Shown here piece after piece: positions 272 to 44,292 of a DNA stretch of 64,000 nt. The DNA lies in the NCBI RefSeq assembly GCF_000469135.2, contig NZ_CP048117.1, positions 3,633,501-3,697,500 of the forward strand, given 5' to 3'. Position 1 is the first letter of the stretch. Every line of letters begins with the position of its first letter. The position numbers and the translations under genes were made by a program. Under the pieces are notes generated by a model. That model saw only the letters and a list, made by a program, of their open reading frames with translations, ran no database searches and was not told the origin of the DNA. The stretch is from Bacillus sp. SB49 (GTDB taxonomy: Bacteria; Bacillota; Bacilli; Bacillales; Halobacillaceae).

Positions 272-343
272 TTTCACTCCGCTCTTCCGGGGTCTCACCT
301 GTGCCACTATTCCCACAGGAGTCTGCTCCATTCCCCTCCACCC
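272..343 (-). repeat. Dispersed structured repeat, copy A (cut by the IS)
   Basis: Read on the minus strand this has the repeat core with CAGACTCCTG and GAGACCCCGGAAGAGC, the left stem arm GGGGAATGGAGC (325-336) and the outer arm GGGT (340-343). The other half, including the right arm, is missing because the IS end at about 271 interrupts it. Full copies are at 28069-28191, 29214-29333 and 44173-44292, an internally deleted one at 36323-36403, and a decayed one at about 38532-38574. Confidence 0.8.
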
Positions 344-417
344 TTTGCCATAATTCCCTTCCTTTTGTTTCATTCCCTTCATCCATCGTTATCGTTATTT
401 GATGGAAAAGTTTCATA

Positions 418-452
418 GAAGGAGGATTTTTATTCCTTCCTTCGATTTTTTA
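418..452 (+). terminator. Probable terminator downstream of the IS
   Basis: GAAGGAGG at 418-425 can pair with CCTTCCTTC at 435-443 (one bulged base) and is followed by GATTTTTT. It would stop rightward transcription from the IS and sits just before the convergent gene ending at 488. The rest of 246-487 shows only repeat copy A and no open frame I can support. Confidence 0.45.
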
Positions 453-487
453 AGATTTCACAGCCGGAAAAAGGGAACCATCCCTAA

Positions 488-754
488 TCAGCCGAATAAA
501 TGAAGCAGCCATCCTGCACCGGAGAAGAGGAGCACGATCGCCAGGATGACAAGGAAGATATAAAACAGGACGGCAAGGATGTGAAAGGCCACCACGGCGG
601 CCATAAGCAGGATGATCAGCAGCAGAAACAGCTGCAGCATGTCCTTCGTATGTACGATCAGGAAATAAGCGGCAAAGGCAGCTACGGCCAGCAGCAGAAT
701 CCTCATCGCCCACAGGCCTATATTCTTGAATAGGTTCGATTTCTCTCCCTTCAT
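488..754 (-). CDS. Small membrane protein of unknown function
   Basis: This gene encodes 88 residues. After a charged N-terminus (MKGEKSNLFKN) there are three closely packed hydrophobic segments (about residues 13-33, 40-62 and 63-84), so it should be a small inner-membrane protein. The ATG at 754 is chosen because AGGAGGGG lies directly upstream; longer readings of the frame run antisense through the next genes. It is transcribed away from the coiled-coil/MazF-like pair at 863-1477, sharing a 108-bp divergent promoter region. I do not recognise the family. Short hydrophobic proteins are common in conjugation clusters, but nothing ties it firmly to the neighbouring secretion genes. Confidence 0.65.
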   Translation of the reverse strand: MKGEKSNLFKNIGLWAMRILLLAVAAFAAYFLIVHTKDMLQLFLLLIILLMAAVVAFHILAVLFYIFLVILAIVLLFSGAGWLLHLFG

Positions 755-826
755 CGTATCCCCTCCTTTTCTAAGTATGTATGTTTTTGTTATCCAACCC
801 GTGATTTCTGTGCGTTTCCATTGTGA

Positions 827-832
827 TATAAT
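827..832 (+). promoter_or_regulatory. Candidate -10 box for the 863-1477 pair
   Basis: A perfect TATAAT lies 30 bp upstream of the start at 863. No convincing -35 hexamer is seen at the normal spacing, so this is only a likely core promoter. Confidence 0.4.
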
Positions 833-862
833 GGAAAAAACAAAACCATCGGAGGTGCTTCC

Positions 863-1060
863 ATGAGCGCAGACAAACAGACAGAAGCAGAGATGCTGAA
901 AGAAATCGAACGACTTCAGAAGATCGAGGAGCAGCAGCGGGACATTCTCGACAAACAACCCGGAGAAAAGCCGGCCGACCGCCTGCGCACAGACGGGAAA
1001 GGCAAAGTGATCATCGACAAGGACGACAAAGAACTTCGCAAGCTGTGGGATGTGGAGTAA
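863..1060 (+). CDS. Small acidic coiled-coil protein, possible antitoxin
   Basis: This encodes 65 highly charged residues. The first half (about 5-35, MLKEIERLQKIEEQQRD) is predicted to be a coiled coil, and the second half is short and basic-acidic. A strong GGAGGTG site precedes the ATG. Its stop is three bases before the start of the 137-residue gene at 1064, so the two should be co-transcribed and translationally coupled. Small charged proteins just upstream of a MazF-like protein are often antitoxins, but no DNA-binding fold is apparent, so that role is inferred only from position. Confidence 0.6.
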   Translation: MSADKQTEAEMLKEIERLQKIEEQQRDILDKQPGEKPADRLRTDGKGKVIIDKDDKELRKLWDVE

Positions 1061-1063
1061 TCG

Positions 1064-1477
1064 ATGAGTGATATCTACACACCCCAAATGAAGGACGTCG
1101 TCTGGGTGGACATCGACTTTTATGACAAAAAAACAGGGGAAATGAGCAATAAAGGCGCCCGTCCCTGTGTCGTCATGAAGGTGGAAGACGATCAAGTCCA
1201 CCTGCGGACGTTGACCTCGCAGATCAAAACATATCCAGCGAACAAACACGGCGTCCTCGTCGAAAAAGACGACGTCAATAAACTGAAGAAGGATTCCGCC
1301 GTCCTCTGCACGTCCGATAACTATTTCTCCATGAGCAGAGAAGAAATCGGACACCTCGAAAAGTCAGGCGAGATCTCCACGGCTCAAATGCTTGACGTCA
1401 TGCGGAAATCGGTCGCCTGCAACCGGATGGATATCCAGCTGAGAAAAAGCGTCCAGAAATCAGGATCCCTTTCCTGA
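1064..1477 (+). CDS. PemK/MazF-like protein, possible toxin
   Basis: The 137-residue product opens with VVWVDIDFYDKKTGE followed by KGARPCVVMKVEDDQVHL. This resembles the beta-barrel start of PemK/MazF-family endoribonucleases, which begin with a 'G-(D/E)-(I/V)-(V/W)-W-V' strand and an R-P-V-V-(V/I) strand. The C-terminal half is longer and less familiar than typical MazF (about 110-120 residues). GGAG at the end of the upstream gene acts as its ribosome site. If the resemblance holds, it is an mRNA-cleaving toxin paired with the 65-residue protein. It could instead be a housekeeping protein with a PemK-like fold. Confidence 0.5.
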   Translation: MSDIYTPQMKDVVWVDIDFYDKKTGEMSNKGARPCVVMKVEDDQVHLRTLTSQIKTYPANKHGVLVEKDDVNKLKKDSAVLCTSDNYFSMSREEIGHLEKSGEISTAQMLDVMRKSVACNRMDIQLRKSVQKSGSLS

Positions 1478-1498
1478 TGCCCTCTCCACAAGCAGGAA

Positions 1499-1525
1499 GC
1501 CCCCTTAGTTAAGGGGGCTTTTATT
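1499..1525. terminator. Bidirectional terminator
   Basis: GCCCCCTTA (1499-1507) pairs perfectly with TAAGGGGGC (1510-1518) across a two-base loop, followed by TTTTATT. It lies between the convergent genes ending at 1477 and 1524. Confidence 0.85.
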
Positions 1526-2063
1526 ACAGCTGATTTTCTGCAGATTTTGTTTTCGTCTCCTGCCTGACACTGCTTTCCATCTTCGTAATCGTCTGCTGCG
1601 GGACATTAAACGTCTCCATGACTTCCTGCTTGCTGGTCCGGTACGTCTGCTCCGCGGACAGGCGGTTGACGAGATTTTCTTCCGTCAATTCGCCGCTGTT
1701 TTCTTTCTTCACCATATCCCACAAGTTCTGATACTGGGCTTTCAAATCCTTCATCGATTCTGCTTTCGCGCTCGCCTCCGGATTGACCAGATCAAGCCCT
1801 TTGGCATGCTCGAGTTCCTTCGCGGACAACATGAACGACGTCTGCCGCCCCTGCATCTGCGCTTCTCTCAATTCCGCTGCGTTCTCTTTCGTGAGCAGAT
1901 CGGATAGGTGCACCCTTCTTTCTCCGTTCTCAATGATGCCACCCGGCTCGATGGCATATTCCTGTGTATGATCGGTATTCATATCCCGCAGCATCATATA
2001 CTGCTGGCTTTTATCTGCCGGCTCGAATACGATCGTCCCCATCAGGTTCTCTTCTCGTTCCAT
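1524..2063 (-). CDS. Hypothetical protein at the end of the secretion cluster
   Basis: The product is 179 residues, soluble and charged, with no signal peptide or membrane segment. The N-terminal half (about 8-75, TIVFEPADKSQQYMMLRD) looks beta-rich, and the C-terminal half is helical and rich in Q, E and K. It is the last gene of the leftward operon, 57 bp after the coiled-coil membrane protein at 2120-2968. AAAGGATGAGATAGG precedes the ATG at 2063; a second methionine seven codons in is possible. I do not recognise it. Its place suggests a soluble accessory factor of the secretion apparatus. Confidence 0.6.
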   Translation of the reverse strand: MEREENLMGTIVFEPADKSQQYMMLRDMNTDHTQEYAIEPGGIIENGERRVHLSDLLTKENAAELREAQMQGRQTSFMLSAKELEHAKGLDLVNPEASAKAESMKDLKAQYQNLWDMVKKENSGELTEENLVNRLSAEQTYRTSKQEVMETFNVPQQTITKMESSVRQETKTKSAENQL

Positions 2064-2119
2064 CCTATCTCATCCTTTCTGTTAAAAGCAGCCCCGGCTT
2101 CCTGCAGGGCCGCCCTTCT

Positions 2120-2968
2120 TCAATCGGTTGTCTCAAGGAGCTGCTCGCGCTCCCGCTGTTCTGTCTTTTGAATCTTATCGTCGAATCGCTCCAAGTCCAT
2201 CTTCAAGCGCTCTATTTCTTTCGCTGTCTCGTTCTTTTTAACTTCCAGTGCATTGATGTCATTGTCCGTCTGAAGTTTCTCTTCATCGGTCTGGTAGACT
2301 TTATCCTCGCGCAGGGAAGCGATCCGTTCCTCTGCATCCTTGGAATCTGCCTTCAGATCCTTGATGTCTTCTTCTACGGTTTGGATATTCTCTCTGATGC
2401 CTTCGATGATGAGGTCGGTCGTGTAGGAAATGTACTCGCCGCTCTCCCGTTCCTCAATCGATGCTTCTTCCACTTCCCTGTAGTCGGCATACAACGTCCT
2501 CAGGATGGAGCGGCCGGACTGCTCCTCTTCCGCCTCTTCCTCCTCGGGGACTTCTTTCGTTCCGATCAAATCGAGAGCGACCTGAGTATAATCAGTCGAC
2601 AGTCCTTCCAAACGGACGACGTAGTGGTCTTCGTACTGGAAAACGACCTCGGTATCGACCTCGCTGCCGTCGCTTCTCTGGAAGGCTTCAAAATCGATCG
2701 TGTCGTATTCATTCTTCAGATGTCCGGTATCGATGATGACCTCCATCTGCCCCGTCTTCGGATCATAGATCCACCGGTTGATGACGACATTCTCCGTGGA
2801 GGAAACCTTGATATCTTCGTTGACAGGAGAAGACAGCACCTCCACTTTCTCCTCGAAAACAAACCCGGACGTCAGGAAAAACGCGAGCCCAAGAAAGACG
2901 CCGCCGAGGATGGTCATATACATCCGGTTCGACTTCCTCCTCAGATTCACTTTATCTTTGTTGAACAT
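2120..2968 (-). CDS. Membrane-anchored coiled-coil protein of the T4SS cluster
   Basis: The 282-residue protein has a basic N-terminus, one transmembrane helix (about 17-38, MYMTILGGVFLGLAFFLTSG), a beta-rich external region (about 40-140), an E-rich linker (EEEEAEEEQ) and a long C-terminal coiled coil (about 195-275). The single anchor with an extracytoplasmic rod suggests a structural part of the transfer channel or an adhesin-like element. It follows the 203-residue membrane protein by 16 bp in the same operon. No catalytic motif is visible, and I cannot name a family. Confidence 0.65.
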   Translation of the reverse strand: MFNKDKVNLRRKSNRMYMTILGGVFLGLAFFLTSGFVFEEKVEVLSSPVNEDIKVSSTENVVINRWIYDPKTGQMEVIIDTGHLKNEYDTIDFEAFQRSDGSEVDTEVVFQYEDHYVVRLEGLSTDYTQVALDLIGTKEVPEEEEAEEEQSGRSILRTLYADYREVEEASIEERESGEYISYTTDLIIEGIRENIQTVEEDIKDLKADSKDAEERIASLREDKVYQTDEEKLQTDNDINALEVKKNETAKEIERLKMDLERFDDKIQKTEQREREQLLETTD

Positions 2969-2984
2969 AGCTTCACCCCTTTTG

Positions 2985-3596
2985 TCACACGTCGTTCGCT
3001 TCCGGATCTTCCTCTTTCACTTCTTCTGTATCTGCGAACAAATCCTCGATGTCTGTCGCAATCCAAGCATCCTCTTCATAGACGAAGTGAACGCGCAGAA
3101 ACATCTTGGACTTGTCTTTCTTTCCGGTTTCCAAGTAGTCGATTTCATGCTCGACTTCGATCAGCACATCGATTTCCTTCTGATTCGCATCCATGTTCTG
3201 AATGTAATACTCTTCGCTCAAAAGCTTCGACTCCACGTTGTTCTGATTGAATTCATCCGCCGGGAAGTACCGCTCCTGCAGGGCTTCACTCATGACGCCC
3301 GCCGCTTGGTCCTTCCGCTGCTGGTAGCCTTCGATCTTCTGGACGAAGACGAGGTTCACGAACAGCTTCGCCTGACTCTGCAAGTCATCGAACCGCTGCT
3401 CGCGTGCGGTATTGGAGATGTTCTTCTCCTTATCCTCGAGCACCCGGTTCTCGTCCTGAAGCTCCTGATTCGCTTTGGCGACCGCCTCGTACTCGTCTCC
3501 TTTCTTGCCATTGGCATAGAAGAAGTACGCATTGACCGCCAGCAAAAGGACGAGAATGATCAACGACACGTGTTTGAATAGTTTTATACTGTTCAT
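2985..3596 (-). CDS. Membrane protein, VirB8/TcpC-like topology
   Basis: This encodes 203 residues. An N-terminal transmembrane helix (about 11-29, VSLIILVLLLAVNAYFFY) is followed by a short coiled coil and a C-terminal alpha+beta region ending in a strand-rich part (FLRVHFVYEEDAWIATDIE). That topology and the tail recall the NTF2-like domains of VirB8/TcpC conjugation proteins, which form the periplasm-equivalent part of the channel. The similarity is structural impression only. It lies 18 bp downstream of the cell-wall hydrolase gene in the same operon. Confidence 0.6.
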   Translation of the reverse strand: MNSIKLFKHVSLIILVLLLAVNAYFFYANGKKGDEYEAVAKANQELQDENRVLEDKEKNISNTAREQRFDDLQSQAKLFVNLVFVQKIEGYQQRKDQAAGVMSEALQERYFPADEFNQNNVESKLLSEEYYIQNMDANQKEIDVLIEVEHEIDYLETGKKDKSKMFLRVHFVYEEDAWIATDIEDLFADTEEVKEEDPEANDV

Positions 3597-3614
3597 ATCG
3601 CTTTCTCCTTGCTG

Positions 3615-4736
3615 TTAAAATCCGAGAACCTCTTTCGGATCCATATGTCCGCTCCACATTTCTTTTTTCGTTTCCAAATGCAGGTGAGGTCCCGTCGATC
3701 TTCCTGTCGTTCCGCAGACGCCGAGTTTATCGCCCGCCTGAATTCGCGAACCTTCCGATACGTCGATGCTCGACAAGTGGGCATAGTGGGTGTACAGCTG
3801 ATCTTCATGCTGGATGACGACGGAATTCCCATAAGTTCCCGCACCCTGGCTGTACACGACCACCCCGTCTCCGACCGAGTGGATCGGTGTTACGCCGCCC
3901 ATACAGGCGAAGTCGATGCCGTTGTGCATCGATTTTTCCTCTCCTGTCACCGGGTGGGTCCGGTAGCCGTAATCACTGGTGATTTCCGCACTGCCCTGGA
4001 TCGGCCGGACGAAATCACCGTTGAAGCTTGGGGAGATGCCCGCAATCGCGTCACTCGACACAGGATGGTAATACTTCAGGACCGCATCGACATACATCAC
4101 ATCTCCGTAACAGGCGCCGCTTGGAACGGAATCCCCGCGGATACAGCTGTAAAGCCCTGTATGCTTCAGCTTCTCGTACATCATTTGCGAAAAGGAAACA
4201 GCGAGGTCCTCGGTATAAGCACCGCCGCGGTCATTCACATAATCGATGAACCCGCCGCCGAAGTTATACGACTGGAGGGCCAGTTTAATATCCCCGTTCG
4301 CCTTCTCGAGGACGCTCTTGTAATGTTTGACGCCTTGTTCGATGGATGCCTTCGGGTCGGTGATGCAGCCAATGTAGCCGCACTTGCTCTCACTTGCCTG
4401 GAACGGGTCATCCCCGCCTCCGCCCGACTCCTGCATCATCATCGCAAGCAGGACGTCGACGTGGCTCTCGATTCCGAATTCCCTGGCATACATTTCGACA
4501 TCGCTCCGGTAGCCTTCCACCGTATCATTGAGAGGAAAGGTACCCGGGGGAAGGCTGATGATTTCCCCGGATGTCCCACTGTTACTATCCGATCCGCCGA
4601 TGAAGCTCTGGAAGATGCCGACACCGAGGACAAAAAGGAAAAAACCGACGACAACGACGAGCAGGATGATCAATTTCGCTTTGAGCGAGAGGAAGCCTGC
4701 TCCCAGTTTGACTGCGTTCTTCGCTAGATTGCTCAA
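3615..4736 (-). CDS. Two-domain cell-wall hydrolase (lytic transglycosylase + M23 peptidase)
   Basis: This is a CwlT/TraG-type enzyme that opens peptidoglycan locally for the transfer channel. It has one transmembrane helix near residues 18-40 (LIILLVVVVGFFLFVLGVGI). A lysozyme-like domain follows, with the probable catalytic glutamate in MMMQESGG. The C-terminal M23/LytM domain has the zinc motifs HNGID and HLHLE. I favour the TTG at 4736: GGAGG lies 11 bases upstream and the start falls just past the VirB4 stop, giving 373 residues. The open frame extends to 4784 but would overlap VirB4 without its own ribosome site. Swapping a CHAP for an M23 peptidase is a common variation in this family. 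Confidence 0.9.
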   Translation of the reverse strand: MSNLAKNAVKLGAGFLSLKAKLIILLVVVVGFFLFVLGVGIFQSFIGGSDSNSGTSGEIISLPPGTFPLNDTVEGYRSDVEMYAREFGIESHVDVLLAMMMQESGGGGDDPFQASESKCGYIGCITDPKASIEQGVKHYKSVLEKANGDIKLALQSYNFGGGFIDYVNDRGGAYTEDLAVSFSQMMYEKLKHTGLYSCIRGDSVPSGACYGDVMYVDAVLKYYHPVSSDAIAGISPSFNGDFVRPIQGSAEITSDYGYRTHPVTGEEKSMHNGIDFACMGGVTPIHSVGDGVVVYSQGAGTYGNSVVIQHEDQLYTHYAHLSSIDVSEGSRIQAGDKLGVCGTTGRSTGPHLHLETKKEMWSGHMDPKEVLGF

Positions 4737-4740
4737 TGGA

Positions 4741-6699
4741 TCAAGCACCTCCACCGAATAAGTCCAGCTCCTCCTTCGACACATCGACGTTCATCTTGAT
4801 GTTCTTCACAGACGAGATCGACAACAGCACCTGTCCAGTCTGGAGGAATGGAATCTGATTCAATTCACTGTCATTTAATTGCCCCACGAAAACCTCTTTC
4901 AGCCTGCTCAACGATTCGCTGTCCTGTTCGGCGATGAATTTGTACTGCGTCAGACTGAACAGCTTCTTCACTTCTTCGGCGCTGTTCTGATCAGCGTTCT
5001 CCGGTACGAAGTCGGTGATCAGGTGGCTCGCGAAGAAAATGCCGCCGAAATATTTCCGTGCCTCCCGCATGAAGCGCTGCAAATACTGGACGCCGTGTTC
5101 CGAACCTTTTCTCGTATTAATGATATGGTGGGCTTCATCGATCAGGATCAAATAACGGATAGCATCCTCAAATTCGAGGCGGTGCTTGTTGAACGCCTGG
5201 AATTGCGGCTGTCCGTTATTCAACATGCCGTCCCACAGCATGTTCATGACGTTGAACAGCTGGGCCTGGAAAATTTCCGGCTTCAGCTCGGATAGATTAC
5301 GGAGCGGAAACGATACAAAGTACTCGTGGTCGAAGTTATCGATGCTCGACGGTCCGTCAAATAAGTGCGCATAGTTCTGGACGAGGTTGGATATGTTCAG
5401 TTCGATATGTTCCAGACGCTCGCGGCGGACGACGCCGATATTTTCATAGACTCGCTGGGCATCAATGTCTTCATACAGCTCTTTCCGCAGGTAGTAGAGG
5501 AAGTCACTGAACGTCGGGTATTCCTCCGCCTTCCGGTCGGTGATGCGGTTCTCTTCCTCCCCTTCGACCCATAAGCCGTGCTCGACGTACAGGTTGCGCA
5601 GGAGATTCTCGTATTCTTTGATTTCCGCATTGGTCGTATCCGGGTTCAAAAAGCGGTAGAAGACGCTCATTTTACTAAGGTGCTGGGTGAACGAGAGCTG
5701 CTCGTTCGCCGTGCCGTCATCGTTCGATGCTGTCTTATAGACGTGCAGCGGATTGATGATCCCGTTCGATCCGTCGAGGGCGATGATTTTTCCGCCGAGA
5801 GCATGGGTCAGATCCTCAAACTCTCCGGTAATATCAAGAATCCGGACTTTGTGCCCCTTCACCGCATTATCAAGCGCCACCTTCTTCAGAAGCGTCGACT
5901 TCCCTGATCCCATTTTTCCGATCATGAGGGCGTTGTAGAACTTACGCTTCTGGTCTTTATGGAACAAATCGAAAATGACGTTGCCGTTGGTGTCCGTCGT
6001 TCCGTAATGGGTACCGAACGGATCGTTCAGAGCGGTGAAGTGGAACGGAAAGCCGCCCGCAAGCGACAAGGACGGAATCTCGACCCCTTTCCGTTTGTTC
6101 GGATATTTCTGCTGGGTCGAGTAGCTGCTGAACAGCCCTTCCCACTCGTATTCCTGCTCATTGAGAAACACACTTCCCCGGAAGTTGAGAGATTCGAGCG
6201 TATCGATGACTTCTTTGACGGTACGCTCCAGCTCATCGATCGTCTTCGCACTGACAAACAGACGAAGGATGATCCGCTTCAGCACTTCTCCCTGACGGAT
6301 TTCATTGTAGATGTCCTGAAGCTCTTCATAGCTCTGGGATGCTTCGATCAAGTCCGAGGTATCCTTGGCATTCTCTCCGCGGACTTTCTGCTCGGCCATA
6401 CTCTTGTTGATATTATCCATGACTTCCTTCCGGTTCGGGGTACTGATATCCAGGCTTGCCACGACGTTCGGCATGTTCATGATCTGCTCGAGCCAGAAGT
6501 CGGAAACGATCGTTTGGAAATCGTAGATGTGGATGCTTGTTTCATAGCCGTCCCCTTTACGGATGAAGGCTTCGTCGAACTTGATGCCGCCCTGACTCTG
6601 AATCTCAGACAGCAGATAAGGGTTGTAACCATAGACTTCTTTGTCATCTTTCTTCTCCGTGTCCGATGGCTTGAATCGGCTTAATATCGCTTGCAGCAC
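4741..6699 (-). CDS. VirB4-family conjugation ATPase (TraE/TrsE-like)
   Basis: The 652-residue ATPase would energise assembly and operation of the type IV channel at the cytoplasmic membrane. Walker A is GKMGSGKST and Walker B is LILIDEAHH, both in the C-terminal two thirds, with a VirB4 N-terminal domain before them. Translation starts at a GTG (6699) with GAGGGG upstream. Only one base separates it from the stop of the preceding gene, so the two are coupled. Length and neighbour order (PrgI-like, TraD-like, VirB4, cell-wall hydrolase) match pSK41/pGO1 TraC-TraD-TraE and the later hydrolase. Confidence 0.93.
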   Translation of the reverse strand: MLQAILSRFKPSDTEKKDDKEVYGYNPYLLSEIQSQGGIKFDEAFIRKGDGYETSIHIYDFQTIVSDFWLEQIMNMPNVVASLDISTPNRKEVMDNINKSMAEQKVRGENAKDTSDLIEASQSYEELQDIYNEIRQGEVLKRIILRLFVSAKTIDELERTVKEVIDTLESLNFRGSVFLNEQEYEWEGLFSSYSTQQKYPNKRKGVEIPSLSLAGGFPFHFTALNDPFGTHYGTTDTNGNVIFDLFHKDQKRKFYNALMIGKMGSGKSTLLKKVALDNAVKGHKVRILDITGEFEDLTHALGGKIIALDGSNGIINPLHVYKTASNDDGTANEQLSFTQHLSKMSVFYRFLNPDTTNAEIKEYENLLRNLYVEHGLWVEGEEENRITDRKAEEYPTFSDFLYYLRKELYEDIDAQRVYENIGVVRRERLEHIELNISNLVQNYAHLFDGPSSIDNFDHEYFVSFPLRNLSELKPEIFQAQLFNVMNMLWDGMLNNGQPQFQAFNKHRLEFEDAIRYLILIDEAHHIINTRKGSEHGVQYLQRFMREARKYFGGIFFASHLITDFVPENADQNSAEEVKKLFSLTQYKFIAEQDSESLSRLKEVFVGQLNDSELNQIPFLQTGQVLLSISSVKNIKMNVDVSKEELDLFGGGA

Positions 6700-6700
6700 G

Positions 6701-7676: not shown

Positions 7677-7690
7677 GGTTTCCCTTCCTT

Positions 7691-27969: not shown

Positions 27970-28068
27970 TTTTTATCATAGAAGAAAATTTTTTAGAAAC
28001 ATTAAAAGGAAGGGATTATGCCCTCAAAGCCTTATTCCCTACAAGCTTAAGGAAGTAAATAGCAGCAG

Positions 28069-28191
28069 AGGGCGTAGGGAAGAGGGGCAGACTCCTGCGG
28101 GAGATGCGGCACAGGTGAGACCCCGGAAGAGCAGCGCGATGAGGAGGCTCACCGGCCGCCCCGCGGAAAGCGCCCCTCTTCCCGGAGCCCT
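28069..28191 (+). repeat. Dispersed structured repeat, copy B
   Basis: This is a full copy. The outer stem AGGGC/GCCCT (28069-28073, 28187-28191) and inner stem GGGAAGAGGGGC/GCCCCTCTTCCC (28077-28088, 28172-28183) enclose a core with CAGACTCCTGCGGGA, an internal hairpin GGTGAG...CTCACC and CCCCGCGGAAAGCG. The rest of the 27970-28420 gap holds only the terminator at 28211 and the azoR promoter region. Confidence 0.9.
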
Positions 28192-28210
28192 CCTCCCTGC
28201 AGTAAAAAAC

Positions 28211-28420: not shown

Positions 28421-29053
28421 GTGAACGTATTAGTTATAAAAGCAAACAACCGTCCAGACGGTATTTCAACGAAGATGTACGACGCGTTTTTGGAAAATAT
28501 TGAGCAGAATCAAGACGTCAACGTCGAAACGTATGATCTGTTCGCCGAAGATACACCATATTTGAGCCAGGATCTATTCACTGCGATCGGTAAAATCCAG
28601 GAAGGTGCCGCTATGAACGAAGACGAGCAGCGCTTGATGGATGCGAAGCAGAAAGCGAAAGACGCGTTGAGCAAAGCAGACGTCGTCGTTGTCGCGTTCC
28701 CACTATGGAACTTGACGATCCCTGCGAAACTGCAGACGTTCATCGACTATGTAGCCGAAGCAGGCTTCACATTCAAGTACACGCCGGAAGGTCTGAAGCC
28801 GCTTATGACAGACAAACAGGCGATCCTTCTGAACGCCCGCGGCGGCAACTATTCCGATCCGTCCATGGCACCGATGGAAATGTCCTTGAACTACATGCGT
28901 AACGTTCTTGGTGGACTATTCGGCATGAAGATTACAGAAGAAGTAATCATCGAAGGCCACAATGCGAACCCGGATCAAGCGGAAACTATCGTTAACGAAG
29001 GTCTTGAGAAAGTCGCACAAGCTGCGAAAAACGTCGCTTACCAAAACGTATAA
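28421..29053 (+). CDS. azoR: FMN-dependent NADH-azoreductase
   Basis: The 210-residue flavodoxin-fold enzyme reduces azo compounds and quinones with NADH. Family features are the N-terminal strand VLVIKANNRPDGIST, the FMN-binding VVAFPLWNLTIPAKLQTFIDY, the FTFKYTPEGLKPLM loop and LLNARGGNYSD. It starts at a GTG with TAGGAGG upstream and ends at a strong terminator. Firmicute homologues are often induced by electrophiles and quinones through MarR-type repressors. No such operator is evident here. Confidence 0.92.
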   Translation: MNVLVIKANNRPDGISTKMYDAFLENIEQNQDVNVETYDLFAEDTPYLSQDLFTAIGKIQEGAAMNEDEQRLMDAKQKAKDALSKADVVVVAFPLWNLTIPAKLQTFIDYVAEAGFTFKYTPEGLKPLMTDKQAILLNARGGNYSDPSMAPMEMSLNYMRNVLGGLFGMKITEEVIIEGHNANPDQAETIVNEGLEKVAQAAKNVAYQNV

Positions 29054-29096: not shown

Positions 29097-29213
29097 CAAT
29101 TTGATTTATCTTCTTTTCACCAACACCTAACTTTAGCCATTGATATCGAATAACAGCGGATTATTGGGCCGGTCCTTATCTGTATTTGATAATGAAGGGC
29201 CATGTCAGGCAAA

Positions 29214-29333
29214 GGACGGAGGGGAATGGAGCAGACTCCTGCGGGAGAAGTGGCTCAGGTGAGACCCCGGAAGAGCAACGCGATGAGGAGGCTCACCGGC
29301 CCCCCGCGGAAAGCGCTCCATTCCCCGGAGTCC
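29214..29333 (+). repeat. Dispersed structured repeat, copy C
   Basis: This is a full copy. The outer stem is GGAC/GTCC (29214-29217, 29330-29333) and the inner stem GGGGAATGGAGC/GCTCCATTCCCC (29221-29232, 29315-29326). The core is close to copy B, while both stems differ from B in sequence yet still pair perfectly. Confidence 0.9.
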
Positions 29334-29360
29334 GCCCTCTTCTCCAATCTTTTTCAATAA

Positions 29361-29399: not shown

Positions 29400-30626
29400 T
29401 TAATGGCCTTCTGCTTCATCGACGTGATGGACGTGCTTCGCGTTTACAGCGACAAACAGCACAGATACCAGCACGACAACCCCCGCCACATAGAACGGTA
29501 CGCTTGAGTTATATACTTCCGCCAGTTTACCCGCAAGGAACGGTGCCAGCGCACCACCCAAAAAGCGCAGGAAGCTGTAGGCCGCAGAAGCCGTCGAGCG
29601 TTCGACAGGGCTTGCGTTCATGACCGCTGTCGTAATGAGCGTATTGTTATTACCGAGCAGCGCACCAGCGAAGATGACCGCAGCGATGACGACCCATTGT
29701 GTAGATGTCCAAGCTCCCATAGCAAGGAGAACAAGACCGAAGACGACGAGCATCAGGCACATCGACTTCACGGTTCCGAACCATTTTTGCAGCTTCGGAG
29801 CAGTGAAGACGGATGTGACGGCAAGCAGAATTCCCCAACCGAGGAAGACGAATCCGAGTCCGTGTTCATCCAGTCCGAGAACGAACGGGGAATAGGCGAG
29901 CAGCGTAAAGAACCCGAAGTTATACAAGGCGGCCGTAATTCCGAGCACCAAGAGAGAACGGTGCTTCAATGCACGGAACGGATCGCCGAGCGATGTTTTT
30001 TTCTTAGCAACGCCTGCTGCCGGCTTCGCTTTTGGCATGAGCGTCGTCAGACCGATGAAAGCAATGACCATAAGCGTCGCAACCCCAAGGAACGGTCCTC
30101 TCCATGACATCGCTCCAAGCCAACCTCCAAGGAGTGGACCGACGGAAATGCCGAGACCGATGGCTGCTTCATACAGGATGATCGCTTTTGCGTTTCCGCT
30201 GTTGGACAACGTGACGATCGCTGTTAGAGCTGTGGCAACGAACAGGGCGTTACCGAGTCCCCAGCCTCCGCGCAGGAAGACAAGCTCCCAGATTCCGTTG
30301 GAAAGACCACCAAGGGCGGAGAAGATCGCGATAATGACGATCCCTGCAAGAAGCGTCTTCTTCATTCCGATTCTCGAAGTGATGAACCCCGTGACGAGCA
30401 TCGCAACGGCCATGACGGCATTATAACTAGTGAATAAGAGCGTAACCTGACTTGGTTCTGCATCCAGCTGCTCGGCTATGGCAGGCAGGATCGGATCGAC
30501 AAGACCCAGTCCCATGAAAGCGATGATACAGGCGAAAAAGACCGCCCACACCGATTTCGGCTGATGTAAAATTCCAGGTTCCTCGGCAATAGTCACCGGT
30601 GGGACCTGGTTTGTTTGTGTAGACAT
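29400..30626 (-). CDS. MFS efflux transporter
   Basis: This 408-residue major facilitator has 12 helices, an N-terminal cytoplasmic stretch, motif A-like GFITSRIGMKKTLLAG between helices 2 and 3, and motif C-like EAAIGLGISVGPLLGGWLG in helix 5, which marks drug/H+ antiporters. It is 19 bp downstream of a CBS-domain gene and divergent from a MarR regulator whose two candidate operators lie in the shared promoter region (31124-31157). It is therefore probably an inducible efflux pump. The substrate cannot be read from the sequence. Confidence 0.88.
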   Translation of the reverse strand: MSTQTNQVPPVTIAEEPGILHQPKSVWAVFFACIIAFMGLGLVDPILPAIAEQLDAEPSQVTLLFTSYNAVMAVAMLVTGFITSRIGMKKTLLAGIVIIAIFSALGGLSNGIWELVFLRGGWGLGNALFVATALTAIVTLSNSGNAKAIILYEAAIGLGISVGPLLGGWLGAMSWRGPFLGVATLMVIAFIGLTTLMPKAKPAAGVAKKKTSLGDPFRALKHRSLLVLGITAALYNFGFFTLLAYSPFVLGLDEHGLGFVFLGWGILLAVTSVFTAPKLQKWFGTVKSMCLMLVVFGLVLLAMGAWTSTQWVVIAAVIFAGALLGNNNTLITTAVMNASPVERSTASAAYSFLRFLGGALAPFLAGKLAEVYNSSVPFYVAGVVVLVSVLFVAVNAKHVHHVDEAEGH

Positions 30627-36183: not shown

Positions 36184-36191
36184 TGGAATTT

Positions 36192-36224: not shown

Positions 36225-36322
36225 GTCTGCCGCGAAAATCTAAGGAACAGGTAAAGCCTTCCCCCCTTTGAAATATGAATCAGGCTGCATCAATAAATCA
36301 AAGGAAAGGCGTGTATGGTAAA

Positions 36323-36403
36323 GGGTGGAGGGGAATAGAGCAGACTCCTGTGGGAATGGTGGCACAGGTAAGACCCCGGAAAGCGCTCTATTCCCCGGAG
36401 CCC
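36323..36403 (+). repeat. Dispersed structured repeat, copy D (internally deleted)
   Basis: The outer stem is GGGT/GCCC and the inner stem GGGGAATAGAGC/GCTCTATTCCCC (36330-36341, 36385-36396). About 36 bases of the core, including the GGTGAG/CTCACC hairpin, are missing between two GGAAAG-like sequences, but the outer stems still pair. Confidence 0.88.
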
Positions 36404-36505
36404 GCTCTCTACCTGAAAATCACTTCCTCTTTTCGAAGTCAGAACTTAACAGGCTGTCGGGAAACTTAAGTGGCTAAAGCAAATATAGTTAACCTACGGA
36501 GAGTT

Positions 36506-36608: not shown

Positions 36609-36620
36609 GCTTATTCAAAC

Positions 36621-38524: not shown

Positions 38525-38531
38525 TAGCCCT

Positions 38532-38574
38532 TAGAAGAGGACGGGGCGTCCCCATTTACCGGAGCCCGCTCTCC
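38532..38574 (+). repeat. Decayed 3' remnant of the dispersed repeat (copy F)
   Basis: GTCCCCATTTACCGGAGCCC (38548-38567) corresponds to the right arm and outer arm of full copies, with the core and left arm gone. It lies just after the YibE/F operon. Confidence 0.6.
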
Positions 38575-38580
38575 AAACAA

Positions 38581-38614
38581 AAAAGCGTCCGGCTCGTAAG
38601 CCGGACGCTTTTTC
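38581..38614. terminator. Bidirectional terminator
   Basis: AAAGCGTCCGGCT and AGCCGGACGCTTT pair perfectly around CGTA with U tracts both ways, between the YibE/F operon and the convergent MetE-like gene. Confidence 0.9.
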
Positions 38615-38622
38615 TATACTAT

Positions 38623-39729
38623 CTATCTCCAAACTTCCTCTGCAATTTCAAGCACGTGGCGGATCTTCGCCCACTGTGCTTCCTCTGAAATCACATTCCC
38701 CTCTTCCGTCGAAGCGAACCCGCACTGCGGGCTGAGACAGAGCTGGGACATCGGCACATAGTCGGATGCCTCTAAGATCCGGGCTTTGATCCGGTCCGGG
38801 TCTTCCAGTTCGCCGGTCTTCGATGTAATCAGGCCGAGGACGACCGACAGATCCGGGCGGTTGACGTGACGGAGCGGTTCGAAGCCGCCGGAGCGTTCAT
38901 CATCGAATTCCAGGAACAGGCCATCGACGTCCAAACCGTCGAAGATCGTCTCCGACAGCGCTTCATAGCTCCCTGTCGTCATGAAGGTCGAACGGAAGTT
39001 TCCGCGGCAGATGTGCATCGTGATCAACAGGTCTTCCGGACGCTCTGCGATCGATTCGTTGATCGAACGGGCACACAGGGTAGCGGCACGTTCCGGATCG
39101 CGGCCTTCCGCAGCAATCGCTTCTCTGCCTTTTTCCGAGAAAAAGCTTGCCCAGGCGGTATCATCGAGCTGCAGGTAGCGGCACCCTTCTTCGTAAATCC
39201 GCTGAATGAATCCTTGGTACGCATCCACCAAATCCGCGAGCAGCGCTTCATCCGTCGGGTAGATCTCCCTGTCGATGTCGGCACGGAATAGGAGCATGTT
39301 GGGGCTCGGAATCGTCAGCTTTGCGACGGAATCGCCGGCGATCTCTTTCAGGAAACGGAAGTCCCTGATGGCCGGATGATCCGTGAACCCGACCTTTCCA
39401 GTCACTTTGACACCGCGCGCCTTCGTCTCCACCCCGTCGAACGGAAGTCCCTTCTCCTTGTCGTAGCCTTCCACTCCATCGAGTCCTTCAAGGAAATCGA
39501 AGTGCCACCAGCTGCGACGGAAATCCCCGTCTGTCACGGCAGGAAGTCCTGCCTCTTTCTGTTTCGCGACAAGCTTCGTTATCTCTTCGTCTTCGATCCG
39601 GCGCAGCTCTTCTTGGGAAATCGTCCCCTCCGCTTTCTGCCGGCGCGCTTCCTTCAAACGCTCGGGTCTCAGGAAGCTCCCGACATGATCGCCTTTGAAT
39701 GGAGCTCGTTTGATGGTTGAATTCGTCAT
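38623..39729 (-). CDS. yxjG: MetE-like methyltransferase (YxjG/YxjH family)
   Basis: The 368-residue protein corresponds to the C-terminal catalytic half of cobalamin-independent methionine synthase. Zinc-binding positions are visible in TMHICRGNF and LSPQCGF. YxjG/YxjH proteins are thought to make methionine from homocysteine with a methyl donor other than the full MetE substrate. GAAGGATG precedes the ATG at 39729. A SAM-I riboswitch immediately upstream makes it a methionine-starvation gene. Confidence 0.88.
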   Translation of the reverse strand: MTNSTIKRAPFKGDHVGSFLRPERLKEARRQKAEGTISQEELRRIEDEEITKLVAKQKEAGLPAVTDGDFRRSWWHFDFLEGLDGVEGYDKEKGLPFDGVETKARGVKVTGKVGFTDHPAIRDFRFLKEIAGDSVAKLTIPSPNMLLFRADIDREIYPTDEALLADLVDAYQGFIQRIYEEGCRYLQLDDTAWASFFSEKGREAIAAEGRDPERAATLCARSINESIAERPEDLLITMHICRGNFRSTFMTTGSYEALSETIFDGLDVDGLFLEFDDERSGGFEPLRHVNRPDLSVVLGLITSKTGELEDPDRIKARILEASDYVPMSQLCLSPQCGFASTEEGNVISEEAQWAKIRHVLEIAEEVWR

Positions 39730-39757
39730 CTCTATCATCCTTCTTCCGTTGAAATTA

Positions 39758-39919
39758 AAAAAATCCACACTTCTCACCATAAGAAGAGCGGATTACCTGC
39801 GTATCTAACCTCTTCTCATCTGCAAGCACGTACGCTTCTGGAATTAGCACAGTACCACCCGTCAGGAGTCTGCTGCTAAGGCTTCAAAGGGCCAGTCCCT
39901 CCACCTTTCTCGATAAGAA
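39758..39919 (-). promoter_or_regulatory. SAM-I (S-box) riboswitch
   Basis: On the minus strand the aptamer (39917-39815) shows the S-box core: CTTATCGAGAAAGGTGGAGG, GACTGGCCC with TGAAGCC, and GTGCTAATTCC. P1 forms from CTTATC and GATGAG. The expression platform has AGAAGAG (39816-39810), which can pair with CTCTTCT as antiterminator. The competing terminator CCGCTCTTCT/AGAAGTGTGG (39791-39765) has a run of T. SAM binding should therefore switch yxjG off. Confidence 0.95.
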
Positions 39920-40103
39920 CGTTTATCTATGAAGTTGTTAGCCCCACTATACAGCAATTCTCAAACGATTGGCAACCTGTTGTCGGAAAATTTTGTCGAT
40001 AAGTCGGACGTACGACCTGTCTCTATTTTATTGCTAGCTTTTTCCAATTCAGCTACTTTAGACATATGTTCCATGAATCAAACATTTGTCCGGAGGGCTG
40101 TCT

Positions 40104-41213
40104 ATGTTACCAAACAAACTGACCGACCGCGAACGTCAGGTCTATGAACAGATTGCAAATAACCCGTATATTTCCCAACACGACCTCTCCCAAATCCTCG
40201 CCTTGTCCCGGTCCACCGTCGCCAACGTCATCTCCCAGCTTGTACAGAAAAACATTCTGCTCGGCCGCGCCTATGTCCTGAATCATTCCCGTCCTGTCCT
40301 CTGCATCGGTGCCGCCAACGTCGACCGCAAGTATCACTGCCTGGAGCGCTTCGACTATAAGACATCGAATCCGGTGCGGTCGACCGCAAGCGCCGGCGGC
40401 GTCGCCAGAAACATCGCAGAAAACCTCGGGCGCCTCGGAAACCGGCCGACACTCATCACTGCTGCCGGCAGAGATGCCGACTGGGAAATCATCGCCCGCG
40501 CCTCTGCCGAGTATATCATAATGGACGGCGTCCTCCATCTGCCGGACCGGAACACAGGCACGTACACCGCTGTCCTCGACGAGCATGGAGAAATGACGAT
40601 GGCCTTCGCCGATATGGCTATTTACGACGCTGTTCTTCCGGAGGAGATCCGTCGTCACGAGAAGAAATGGAAGCAGGCCGAATGCGTCATCGCCGATTTG
40701 AACTGCCCGCAGGAGACGCTCGCCTTCCTGCTTAAGGAAGCAGCCGCCGACCACACGCCGGTCGCCTTCATCACCGTCTCGATACTGAAAATGAAGCGGC
40801 TGCCCTCGGATATCAGCGGCCTGACGTGGCTGATGACGAACGTCGAAGAAAGCGCCGCACACTTCGACATTCCCATTCAAAACGAAGCCCAGTGGAAAGA
40901 CGCCGTTGAACACTGGCTCGCCTGCGGTGTCCGCTATGTCACGGTGACGTGGGGCAAGCGGGGTGTCATGGTCGGGGAAAGCGGCGGCAGCATCCGCCAC
41001 TATCCCGCCCCTGCCCTCGACACGACCGTAGACGTCACCGGCGCCGGAGATGCATTCTCCGCTGCTGTGCTGCACGCCTGGCTCGACGGCAGTCCACTGT
41101 CCGAAGCCGTCCATGCCGGACTGAAGAGCGCCGCCCTCTGCGTCCAGACGACAGCGACCGTCCATTCCGATTTGACGACCCATCTATTAAAAAAACAGGA
41201 GGAGTTCCTATGA
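40104..41213 (+). CDS. psuK: Pseudouridine kinase with N-terminal helix-turn-helix
   Basis: The 369-residue protein has a winged HTH at about 1-60 ([35 protein letters not shown]) fused to a PfkB kinase (about 65-365) with [11 protein letters not shown] as the catalytic/anion-hole motif. It phosphorylates pseudouridine to the 5'-phosphate, the substrate of the next gene, which overlaps it (ATGA). The HTH suggests it also regulates its own operon. CGGAGGG precedes the ATG. Confidence 0.88.
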
Positions 41214-42148
41214 ATCTCAATCCCTATCTCTCCCTATCACAAGAAGTGAACGAAGCTTTGGAAACAGGAAAGCCTGTCGTCGCCCTCGAATCCACCATCA
41301 TCTCCCACGGTATGCCGTATCCTGAAAACATCGAAACGGCGAAGGAAGTCGAGCGGATCATCCGGGATAACGGAGCCGTCCCGGCGACGATCGCCATCCT
41401 TGACGGCCGGATCAAAATCGGACTGACAGCGGAAGAATTGACAGCGCTCGCCTCAAGGGATGATATCACCAAAGCTTCCCGTAAAGACCTCCCGTATCTG
41501 CTTGCGACCGGCCGCTCCGGTGCGACGACGGTAGCCGCAACGATGATTTGTGCCGACCTCGCCGGCATCCGCCTGTTCGTGACCGGCGGCATCGGCGGCG
41601 TCCACCGCGGGGCCGAAACGACGATGGACATATCGGCAGACCTGGAGGAGCTCGCCAGGACGAACGTCGCAGTCATCTGTGCCGGTGCGAAATCGATCCT
41701 CGACCTCGGCCTGACCCTCGAGTATCTGGAAACGAAAGGAGTACCAGTGATGGGGTATCAGACCGACTCCCTTCCTGCCTTCTTCACGCGCACATCCGAG
41801 TTTGCCGTCCATTTCCGCGTCGATGACGCAGAGGAAATCGGGCGCATCCTTCATACGAAATGGGAGCTCGGTCTTCAAGGAGGAGCCGTCATCGCCAACC
41901 CGATCCCTTCCGGTCACGCCCTTGATGCGTCCTACGTGACGGGCGTTATCGAAGCGGCGCTCGTTGAAGCGAAGCAGCAGAGCATCACAGGCAAGGACGT
42001 CACACCGTTCCTGCTGGATCACGTCAACCGCGCCACCGAAGGCAGAAGCCTCGCCGCTAACATCGAACTTATCAAAGCGAATGCCGGACTCGGAGCCGCT
42101 GCAGCCGTCGCTTTTTATGAACAAAAGAAAAAAGCCTATCAGCGATAG
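41210..42148 (+). CDS. psuG: Pseudouridine-5'-phosphate glycosidase
   Basis: The 312-residue lyase splits the C-C bond of pseudouridine 5'-phosphate to uracil and ribose 5-phosphate. Family motifs are [17 protein letters not shown], the catalytic-lysine region [47 protein letters not shown] and [20 protein letters not shown] precedes the ATG. Together with psuK it allows recovery of the modified nucleoside from degraded RNA. Confidence 0.97.
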
Positions 42149-42152
42149 GCTT
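42123..42152 (-). terminator. mqo terminator overlapping the psuG 3' end
   Basis: AAGCCTATC (42132-42140) pairs perfectly with GATAGGCTT (42144-42152). The U tract is on the minus strand (from AAAAGAAAAA at 42123-42132), so it stops leftward mqo transcripts inside the psuG coding end. Nothing convincing terminates psuG itself. Confidence 0.7.
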
Positions 42153-42279
42153 GTCCAGGAAGAAGCTTTGTTTCCATCCGCCGGCGGGAAAAGGGGGTAC
42201 CTTTCCCCTTCTCCGACCCGATCGGCGACTGCTTTTGGAAAACGATATGCTTCTTATTTTTTCTTCTTTCTATACACCC

Positions 42280-43782
42280 CTAACTAAAGATCAGTTCCTT
42301 TTTTGCCAGACCAAGCGCCTCATCTGTCGTACGGTGGATATCCTGGATCATCCGCGGGTGATCGACGAGCGATACGCCGTAGGATGGAATCATCTTGGCG
42401 AGCTTCGGCTTCCATTGATCGATATGGTCAGGGAAGCAGCGGTTCAGCACATCGATCATGACGTGCACGGCTGTCGACGCCCCCGGGGATGCCCCGAGCA
42501 AAGCCGCAATCGAACCGTCCGCACTGTTCACGACTTCCGTCCCGAACTGGAGCGTTCCTTTGCCGCCTTCCTTCGTATCCTTGATTACCTGGACACGCTG
42601 GCCGGCAACGACGAGGTCCCAGTCGGAGCTCTTCGCATTCGGGATGAACTCCCGTAAAGCATCCATCCGCTGCTCCTTCGACAGGAGTACCTGCTGAATC
42701 AAATACTTCGTCAGCGCCATTTCCTTCATTCCCGCTGCAAGCATCGTCAAAATGTTGCCCGGTTTGATCGATGTGAACAAATCCATCAATGAACCTGTCT
42801 TCAGGAACTTCGGCGAGAACCCTGCGAACGGACCGAACAACAGCGTCTTCTGATCGCCGATATAGCGGGTATCCAAGTGCGGCACCGACATCGGCGGTGC
42901 ACCTACAGGAGCTTTGCCGTACACCTTCGCTTCATGCTGTTCGACAATCTCCGGATTCTTGCAGACAAGGAACTGCCCCCCGACAGGGAAACCACCGATT
43001 CCTTTGCCTTCCGGGATGCCGGACTTCTGCAGAAGATGGAGACTTCCACCACCCGCACCGAGGAATACGAAATCCGCCTTCCGGGTTTCCAGCTTATCGT
43101 TCTTATCATCGTACATCTTCAATTCCCAGCGGCCGTCGTTCGTCCGATATAAATCCTTGACGTGGTGATGATGCTGCACTTCCACCCCTTTGGCCTCCAG
43201 ATTCTGAAACAGCTTCCTTGTCAAGGAACCGAAGTTGACGTCGGTACCGCTATCCATCTTCGTCGCCGCGACCGGTCCGTGAGTATGGCGGTCGTTCATG
43301 ATGAGCGGAATCCACTCTTTCAACTGCTCTGGATCTTCCGAATACTCCATCCCTTTGAAAAGAGGATTTTGTGACATCGCATCATAGCGCTTCTTCAGGA
43401 AGTCGACATTCTCTCCTCCGAAGACGAGACTCATGTGGGGCAGTGGCCGGATGAACTGTTCCGGGTCCTTCAACTGGCCGGTCTTCACCAAATGAGACCA
43501 GAACTGTTTGGACACCTGAAACTGTTCATTGATCGAGACAGCCTTCGTCATATCGATCGAACCATCCGCCTTTTCCTTCGTGTAATTCAACTCACACAAA
43601 GCCGCATGGCCAGTCCCTGCATTATTCCATTCATTCGAGCTTTCTTCTCCGGGCGTTCCGAGCTTCTCAAAAACGGTAATGTTCCAATTTGGGGCTAATT
43701 CTTTCAAGAGTGAACCGAGGGTCGCACTCATAATGCCAGCACCTATCAAGATCACGTCTGTTTTCGTTTCTCTGCTGCTCAT
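42280..43782 (-). CDS. mqo: Malate:quinone oxidoreductase
   Basis: The 500-residue membrane-associated FAD enzyme oxidises malate to oxaloacetate and reduces quinone, replacing or assisting malate dehydrogenase. The N-terminal dinucleotide fold is [20 protein letters not shown], followed by [20 protein letters not shown] and, further on, [14 protein letters not shown] and the C-terminal [21 protein letters not shown] precedes the ATG at 43782; an ATG three codons earlier is less well placed. It is alone. Confidence 0.97.
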
Positions 43783-44172
43783 ATTAACCATCCTTATATC
43801 ATGAAATTTGCAGAAAAGATGCCGAGGTCACAAAATCGCACCTCTCCTGTCATTTAATGACCCTGTCTCTATGATACCGCTTTATACACCGAAAAGTCAC
43901 TATTATCTAACAATTATATACAATTTTTCATATCGGAAAACGGCAGGAAAGGCGTCTGTCCGCACATGACCAAGGAAAAATACGTTCTCCGATATAGTAA
44001 GAAAAGAAAGCATGTCCCGTGCATGCAAAAAACACATGGGACGAAAATTGGAATCGTGCTACCATTTCCCATAGAAAGGGTGCTATGTATCTTCCTGAAA
44101 CCATGACAAAATAGGTTCCGGATCTCCTCACATTTTTACTTTTGTATCAGAAGAAAGGATGCTCGCCGTGAA

Positions 44173-44292
44173 GGGCGGAGGGAAATGGGCAGACTCCGAC
44201 GGGATTAGCGGAAGAGGTGAGACCCCGGAAGAGCGCAGCGATGAGGAGGCTCACCGGCCGCCCCGTGGAAAGCGTCCCATTTCCCGGAGCCC
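44173..44292 (+). repeat. Dispersed structured repeat, copy E
   Basis: This is a full copy with the outer stem GGGC/GCCC (44173-44176, 44289-44292) and inner stem GGGAAATGGG/CCCATTTCCC (44180-44189, 44276-44285), both differing from copies B-D but pairing. The remaining gap between mqo and 44344 carries the mqo promoter area and no gene. Confidence 0.9.

Follow-up and report, generated by a model that had tools for sequence, protein, structure and literature searches.

A covarying hairpin repeat dispersed in Bacilli is probably the core of a non-autonomous mobile element and serves as a target of an IS3-family insertion sequence

RESULTS

Repeat copies in the window and in other genomes. The 64-kb stretch of DNA analyzed here (the window) harbors five copies and one remnant of a dispersed repeat, together with the end of an IS3-family insertion sequence (IS) (Table 1). 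All of the positions proposed for these copies in the initial annotation were recovered, and the stem sequences that it quoted are exact, with the pairing of GGGT and GCCC relying on a G.U. The coordinates of full copies are those of the covariance-model matches, and the remnant is absent from both the BLAST and the covariance-model lists. In the stretch examined the copies are mostly intergenic; that at 29212 is flanked by convergent open reading frames (28421-29053, plus strand; 29400-30626, minus strand). The reverse copy, previously described as cut, is indeed interrupted by the IS, and its missing half is found at C1:3632299-3632359, beyond the window edge.

Table 1. Repeat copies and IS-derived features of the window
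Feature	Position	Strand	Basis and remarks
3' end of IS3-family IS	1..276	+	ORF/profile matches, end comparison; terminal repeat ends TTCATTTCA
End of OrfB	about 1-242	+	Part of the same IS3-family IS
5' half of repeat copy, split in the apical loop by the IS	277..351	minus	Sequence inspection, BLAST
Full repeat copy: outer stem, internal loop, terminal stem, conserved core, apical tip	28068..28192	+	BLAST, covariance model
Full repeat copy	29212..29335	+	Covariance model
Copy without hairpin top: internal deletion, junction at GGAA, terminal stems intact	36321..36405	+	Covariance model
3'-arm remnant of repeat copy	38532..38574	+	By eye only
Full repeat copy	44171..44294	+	Sequence inspection, covariance model

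The genome of the window (3.77 Mb) gave 28 covariance-model matches and 39 BLAST matches, half copies included. The family was found in 54 of 61 genomes (this one and 60 relatives) and, at a cut-off of 1e-6, in 64 of 299 sampled Bacilli genomes, the 235 genomes with no match at this cut-off providing an internal control for the distribution. The scatter in other Bacillaceae mentioned in the initial annotation is therefore real. Within one genus the copy number ranges from 3 to at least 58 by covariance model, and the copies at 28068 and 29212 were not found in 17 of 18 loci of relatives where the flanking genes are orthologous. Plasmids and phages were rejected as carriers, as the searches yielded just two plasmid records with partial matches and no match in phages.

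Covariation of the stems. Among 14 copies from the genome of the window, two-sided changes were present in 12 of the 44 modeled pairs (27 cells). Shuffled alignments gave a mean of 7.2 cells (sd 2.7), with none of 500 reaching 27, and structures shifted by 1 to 3 columns gave 2 to 6 pairs changed on both sides. At two modeled positions of the tip, almost every one of the 14 copies has a non-standard pair. A second alignment comprised 48 rows from 30 genomes (the same genome and 29 relatives); it was fitted to the covariance model, and its rows are phylogenetically dependent, two of them being antisense hits to copies that the alignment already contains. Here, two-sided changes affected 35 of the 44 stem pairs and 324 cells, whereas shuffling gave 25.8 pairs and a mean of 89 cells (sd 8.6) and shifted structures gave 10 to 19 pairs and 24 to 49 cells. 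Paired cells made up 93.4% of this alignment versus 78.0% when shuffled, and every pair of the outer stem (4) and of the terminal stem (10) displayed two-sided changes. The claim that the stems change in pairs between copies thus holds in both alignments, and the results support its interpretation as selection for a folded strand or a copying process acting on hairpins. G.U outnumbered A.C mismatches 31 to 11 among the best 30 rows of the model-fitted alignment, which leans toward folding of the given strand, but the margin was small, 16 to 12, in the unfitted 14-row alignment.

We found nothing in favor of chance similarity or a sequencing artifact. The numbers of BLAST and model matches in the genome of the window, the covariation in the 48-row alignment, and the distribution among relatives and the 299 Bacilli genomes contradict this explanation and leave it a negligible chance of being correct.

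An IS resides in the apical loop. The IS is about 1.42 kb in full length and encodes, in different frames, an HTH protein (OrfA) and an rve integrase (OrfB), with a match to NF033516 (313.7 bits). All five copies in the genome of the window are placed in the apical loop of the repeat, as are 33 of 34 placed loci with TTGGACA-type ends (one such locus, L235, was assigned from a single flank). None of 45 loci of sister ISs lies in this loop; they are mostly in other hairpin loops, many of them terminator-like. Target site duplications (TSDs) of 3 to 5 bp accompany 63 of 79 placed IS loci, and 3 of the 5 copies in the genome of the window. The hairpin tip is a target of this IS. The IS3-family transposase would recognize the tip itself, and such recognition would steer the IS away from genes.

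A composite element in congeners. Neither the IS in the loop nor the following element was foreseen in the initial annotation. Congeners rich in copies carry the hairpin in inverted pairs within elements of ~0.4 to 0.55 kb, arranged as outer end, terminal inverted repeat GAAGACTCAGTTTCGAGA, minus core, spacer, plus core, terminal inverted repeat, and outer end. All 16 loci having a second core show the inverted (-)...(+) order, and so do all 10 pairs from 400 kb of the genome G015. Of 20 G015 loci, 19 had a terminal inverted repeat at each side (lengths, 375 to 528), and the minus core was truncated or absent in the composites L282, L290, L296, and L297. The terminal-repeat motif has 0 to 267 matches per genome, the maximum being in a genome of about 4.2 Mb, versus 0 to 1 for a reversed-pattern control. 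The genome of the window has just 2 matches and mostly solitary cores, and the composite is therefore documented in congeners, not there. In one genome, 400 kb contained 12 pairs of terminal repeats, which span 91 to 530 bp, and no longer autonomous form with the same ends; no mobilizing enzyme for the composite was found.

Each composite end consists of two degenerate TATTCMACWAAA arms flanking a nearly fixed center of 6 to 7 bp. Composites are present or absent between species that are ~92% identical. Among 20 loci at 8 orthologous sites, 3 were near-empty, and shortened or rearranged interiors also occurred. Each near-empty site retains one of the two center motifs, and these sites may therefore be scars of excision or deletion rather than sites that were never occupied. 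As judged by eye, 11 of 12 loci from congeners at a greater distance lack a recognizable element, and no TSD is seen in 19 composites, for which there is no never-occupied, near-identical site to compare.

DISCUSSION

The best reading of a repeat that is dispersed, has a covarying structure, is paired in inverted orientation, and is present or absent between close species is a mobile REPIN/MITE-like repeat doubling as a landing pad for an IS that targets hairpin loops. The repeat is probably the hairpin core of an old non-autonomous mobile-element family in Bacilli with a REPIN/MITE-like lifestyle. An enzyme working on the ends in trans would move the composite, and the core may have been preserved either as an RNA or because that movement requires a folded single strand.

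If an enzyme acts on the ends, it might be XerC/XerD of the host or another tyrosine recombinase, in an IMEX-like manner. The layout of two imperfect inverted arms with a 6- to 7-bp center between them suits such an enzyme. Among 32 ends in 400 kb, picked by the terminal repeat alone, the center is exactly GCTCCC or GGCAGG in 20 and a near variant in the rest, and each of 12 end pairs combines one GCTCCC-kind and one GGCAGG-kind end (all by eye). Within a copy, the two arms show no covariation (right end, 6.93 paired of 10 versus 6.87, sd 0.12; left end, 6.28 paired of 9 versus 6.14, sd 0.11; the ends were chosen by their center, so that these values are silent on its constancy). The arms therefore look like protein-binding half-sites, and a role of the ends as hairpin signals was rejected. 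Retention of one center at near-empty sites also counts for a tyrosine recombinase, as do its matches, few in number (four in G015, one of full length, and three in G007). However, the insertions are dispersed, and the probable dif of the genome of the window (ACTCAGTATAA-TATATA-TTATGTAAACT, C1:1884512) shares roughly 6 of the 11 bases in each half with the arms (by eye) but not the center; given this weak similarity, a Xer/dif origin of the ends was rejected. Overall, we regard mobilization by a tyrosine recombinase as unlikely. If the repeat were a true REP/REPIN that a REP-associated Y1 (HUH) transposase mobilizes in trans, the REPIN-like inverted pairs would be accounted for. Moreover, the median copy number is at least 55.5 in 24 genomes with long Y1 genes and at least 20 in 13 genomes (p 0.002), and the comparison for other families (15 versus 9) gave p 0.011; presence was judged by hand, kinship was uncorrected, and copy counts are partly lower bounds. 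A Y1 enzyme would be consistent with this association. On the other hand, the linked transposase of this type suggested in the initial annotation was not found: Y1_Tnp has no match at E 0.001 in the genome of the window, and a weak copy of the repeat (23 bits) lies near 1 of 30 Y1 loci (L125). Nine of the 14 long Y1 genes listed adjoin palindromes of other kinds, for example GGGACGGTTCT, GGTGCCAGGCACC, and CCTCAGGTCATCC (by eye), and no GTAG-type tag stands out in the end compositions (by eye), where the centers GCTCCC and GGCAGG are found instead. Although the copy-number association points the other way, we consider this explanation very unlikely.

The repeat could instead be a functional structured RNA, for instance an antiterminator, a protector of 3' UTRs, or an RNA acting in trans, spread by duplication and kept by the host. 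The strong covariation in 48 rows, the G.U excess in the model-fitted rows, and the conserved core sequence are consistent with this possibility. Nevertheless, the copies in the window have no Rfam match at gathering score, and six congener loci gave four matches up to E 1, all far under the cut-off, so that a known Rfam family was rejected. (The single match in the window at gathering score is a SAM riboswitch located elsewhere.) The wide variation of copy and terminal-repeat numbers within one genus, copy positions that are not conserved among relatives, and the tolerance of deleted and IS-split copies also argue against an RNA kept by the host, which seems improbable to us.

Returning to the mobile, REPIN/MITE-like repeat, we tentatively raise a more specific proposal, which is possible but rather doubtful: a class in Bacilli unrelated to RAYT/REP, with paired 124-nt hairpins between terminal inverted repeats and a tyrosine-type recombinase acting at ends with nearly fixed centers, accompanied by a lineage of IS3-family elements that recognizes the loops of extruded hairpins, initially perhaps those of terminators, and that specialized, perhaps repeatedly, on the tip of the repeat. 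If true, this would be a second, RAYT-independent kind of hairpin repeat in bacterial genomes, abundant in some Bacilli. The two IS groups, one in the tip of the repeat and one in other hairpin loops, amount to a natural experiment on loop choice by a DDE transposase and can also serve to test whether living cells form cruciforms or single-stranded hairpins.

The literature, as far as partially covered, contained no description of this repeat or of an IS targeting it and no match for the core 13-mer; one source deals with IS1447 slippage (PMC6211511). REP/BIME and REPIN sequences are dispersed intergenic hairpins and favored IS targets (PMC3116915, PMC2817692, PMC3733652). The repeat shares these features and the use of inverted pairs as units, whereas its core is about 124 nt and multi-helix (20 to 40 bp in REP/BIME/REPIN) and belongs to a composite with terminal inverted repeats, without a linked Y1 transposase found, in Bacilli. 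Like bacterial MITEs, which include bcr1 of the B. cereus group (PMC3733652), the repeat is short, non-coding, and structured, with terminal inverted repeats; unlike them, it has two different end centers, no TSD seen, and no parent IS found. Bhal-1 of B. halodurans is a 74-bp stem-loop family with 36 copies (PMC2267715). Bhal-1 and the repeat are both stem-loop families of Bacillaceae genomes, and, judged from the description of Bhal-1 alone, they could be the same family.

IS1397 and ISKpn1, members of the IS150 group, insert in the loop of a palindrome and generate TSDs of 3 to 4 bp. Both are IS3-family elements that target REP palindromes (PMC1525189). Here too an IS3-family element is placed inside a dispersed palindrome, but the target is a different, longer repeat, and the sister elements lie mostly in other, often terminator-like hairpin loops.

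Structure and genomic copies of the repeat

All the copies listed in the initial annotation are present with the stems that it quoted, including the cut copy on the minus strand, which spans about 351 to 277 and breaks off where an insertion sequence (IS) starts (276). The whole genome (3,765,941 bases, with the window at C1:3633501-3697500) holds 39 BLAST matches to the repeat, half copies counted (query, the copy at 28069; E up to 0.01), and 28 matches to covariance model R1, built from 14 copies of this genome. Twelve of the 28 are packed into 49 kb (C1:3203589-3252463; 3.2036-3.2525 Mb), where at least five belong to a second subfamily and three copies lie on one strand, spaced about 190 nt. 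The repeat forms a single long interrupted hairpin with helices P1 to P5 and a tip. The second subfamily has a GATT/AATC outer stem and a fully Watson-Crick tip, AGAGC-NNN-GCTCT. The copies without a hairpin top lack the loop that the IS targets.

Elements of the hairpin and copies lacking its top
Feature	Position	Sequence or remark
P1		GGGC/GCCC
3x3 internal loop	between P1 and P2	GGA/GGA
P2		10-12 bp; terminal stem of the initial annotation
Internal loop	between P2 and P3	
P3		CTCC.GCGGG/CCCGCGGA
P4	between P3 and P5	
P5		GGTGAG/CTCACC
Tip		AGAGC-NNN-GCGAT
Copy without hairpin top	genome C1:3049189	GGG/CTCACC junction, identical in all three genome entries
Copy without hairpin top	genome C1:3252387	GGG/CTCACC junction
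Copy without hairpin top	genome C1:583172	GGG/CTCACC junction
Copy without hairpin top	window 36321-36405	

Our results demonstrate that the repeat is under folded-strand constraint. The paired stem changes first noticed in the window exceed shuffled expectation in two alignments. Among 14 subfamily copies of the genome, two-sided changes occur at 12 of 44 pairs, in 27 cells versus 7.2 (SD, 2.7) after shuffling, with none of 500 shuffles as high. Among 48 rows from 30 genomes, this one included (two rows being antisense matches that duplicate copies already counted), both sides changed at 35 of 44 pairs versus 25.8 shuffled, in 324 cells versus 89 (SD, 8.6), and 93.4% of cells are paired versus 78.0%. 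Slid structures paired 42 to 50% of cells in these rows, with two-sided change at 10 to 19 pairs (24 to 49 cells); one modelled pair, at columns 22-140, is paired in just 15% of cells. Counts of G.U and A.C are 86 and 27 over all rows, 16 and 12 for the 14-row alignment, and 31 and 11 when the 30 best rows are taken; in this last set P5 is opposite in direction (3 and 6).

Insertion sequences in the hairpin tip

The hairpin tip serves as the target of an IS. At five places in the genome, repeat halves lie about 1.42 kb apart, separated in either orientation by an element encoding an HTH OrfA and an rve OrfB; its transposase matches NF033516 (IS3 family, 313.7 bits), and we assign it to the IS150 group. 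All five OrfB matches in the genome at E up to 1e-80 are these repeat-splitting elements.

We surveyed 110 loci (30 of 32 OrfB matches from one search plus the best 80 of 581 from a second). Both IS ends could be placed at 79; five of the 31 excluded (L091, L095, L099, L177 and L229) also look repeat-located. Loci with TTGGACA-type ends lie within the repeat in 33 of 34 cases (L235 counted on its right flank alone), the sole exception, L191, occupying a terminator-like hairpin. A lax repeat motif flagged four of the 45 other placed loci (L201, L203, L206 and L213); by eye these are other hairpins, so that none of the 45 lies in the repeat. Flank pairing across the junction averages 15.8 pairs versus 10.3 partner-shuffled at the 42 unflagged loci and 23.5 versus 18.4 at the 37 flagged loci. 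At least 10 pairs form in 90% of unflagged loci versus 54% shuffled, and thus a few of them lack a clear hairpin. Target site duplications are 3 bp at 46 placed loci, 4 bp at 16, 5 bp at 1 and absent at 16, including two of the genome's own five copies; L073 and L162, with identical flanks, are a single insertion counted twice.

In an unrooted OrfB tree of 61 distinct rows, 21 of 23 repeat-targeting rows fall in one clade (97/97), with L173 and L222 among hairpin-targeting rows; the target changes 3 times (2 forced by starred branches) versus 18.8 when shuffled.

Sister IS without TTGGACA-type ends (L077, L079-L082 and many of L163-L241) are mostly in the loops of other hairpins, many of which look like intrinsic terminators (e.g., L163, L169, L181, L200 and L239). 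At L033 and L072, an inverted repeat, long and perfect (GAAATGCCCCCTGAATATT..AATATTCAGGGGGCATTTC), opens the IS at its left end, immediately ahead of OrfA, and likely forms a hairpin over its start.

Composite element in congeners

Copies read from two congeners (20 regions each; contig ends shorten 3 of 40) show the hairpin core embedded in a larger element. In the congener genome G015, read with longer flanks, terminal repeats flank 19 of 20 loci on both sides (at L294 the left one was not matched), and the interior is typically minus core, spacer, plus core; the minus core is absent from L290 and shortened in L282, L296 and L297. Wherever a second core occurs, the order is (-)...(+) (16/16 loci), as in all 10 core pairs within 400 kb of G015, where 4 more cores are solitary. 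The same 400 kb holds 12 terminal-repeat pairs spanning 91 to 530 bp, 10 of them intergenic by a simple ORF caller and 2 overlapping ORFs sited almost entirely inside the element. Genomes G002 and G010 have 267 and 243 terminal-repeat matches, respectively, compared with 2 for the window's genome and 0 for G018.

Each end consists of two arms, consensus TATTCMACWAAA, around a centre. When ends were located from the terminal repeat alone, 20 of the 32 had, by eye, exactly GCTCCC or GGCAGG as centre; all 12 pairs, also by eye, combine one end of each kind. Among ends selected for their centre (sets of 54 and 40), the two arms of a copy show no covariation. This layout, judged from sequence, is that of a recombination site and unlike that of a hairpin signal. 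The genome's probable dif, located at C1:1884512 where the GC skew reverses, bears only a weak likeness to the arms.

Presence of the element varies at the species level. Five congeners with 91 to 92% identity to G015 over a 3-kb test region gave 20 loci at 8 G015-occupied sites. L331, L335 and L336 are nearly empty, retaining degenerate arms around GGCAGG or (G)GGAGC; others have full, shortened or rearranged interiors within the same ends. Five of these sites were also read in congeners that are less related, where 11 of 12 loci lack element and centre motif by eye, and the twelfth, L381, holds an apparent remnant. The window copies at 28068 and 29212 were compared with 18 loci of relatives in which the neighbouring genes are orthologous (71 to 77% identity). 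Only L145 has a convincing copy, and it lies some 480 nt away from the shared gene instead of about 125.

Distribution and candidate partners

With candidates scored up to a limit of 58 per genome, the repeat was matched in at least 54 of 61 genomes, this one plus 60 relatives (E up to 1e-3), and, with at most 11 per genome, in at least 64 of 299 genomes of the class, this one included (1e-6). Repeat halves adjoin the IS in named species such as Thalassobacillus devorans, Sutcliffiella horikoshii, Cytobacillus gottheilii, Rossellomorea aquimaris, Salirhabdus euzebyi and Sediminibacillus massiliensis; 4 of 43 model-scanned loci, drawn from 80 named loci, gave a model match (E up to 0.01).

A link to a REP-associated Y1 transposase, suggested by the initial annotation, was looked for and not found. 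Some Y1_Tnp match occurs in 47 of 61 genomes, and long Y1 presence, judged by hand, is associated with repeat copy number (P = 0.002 and 0.011); long Y1 genes often carry palindromes of their own. In Bacillales, long (RAYT-like) Y1 genes are flanked by palindromes GGGACGGTTCT..AGAACCGTCCC (L119, L122 and L130), GGTGCCAGGCACC arrays (L120 and L124), CCTCAGGTCATCC (L121 and L129) or GGGGGTCAGGCAC (L131), and one IS, L080, is inserted in a GGGACGGTTCT palindrome. The repeat is not a listed RNA family; neither the window copies (at gathering score) nor six congener loci (above cut-off) matched an Rfam model. The window also holds a SAM riboswitch (RF00162; 39813-39919, minus strand; 78.6 bits).

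Proposed mechanism and known parallels

We propose that the composite may be mobilised in trans via its ends, that the core fold may be needed during mobilisation or as RNA, and that the IS transposase would recognise the hairpin loop. IS3-family elements that target REP sequences are named in PMC1525189, in the text of which a word search returned no mention of Bacillus or Firmicutes. By analogy, and with no descent implied, the repeat and its IS resemble REP elements and IS1397/ISKpn1 in behaviour.
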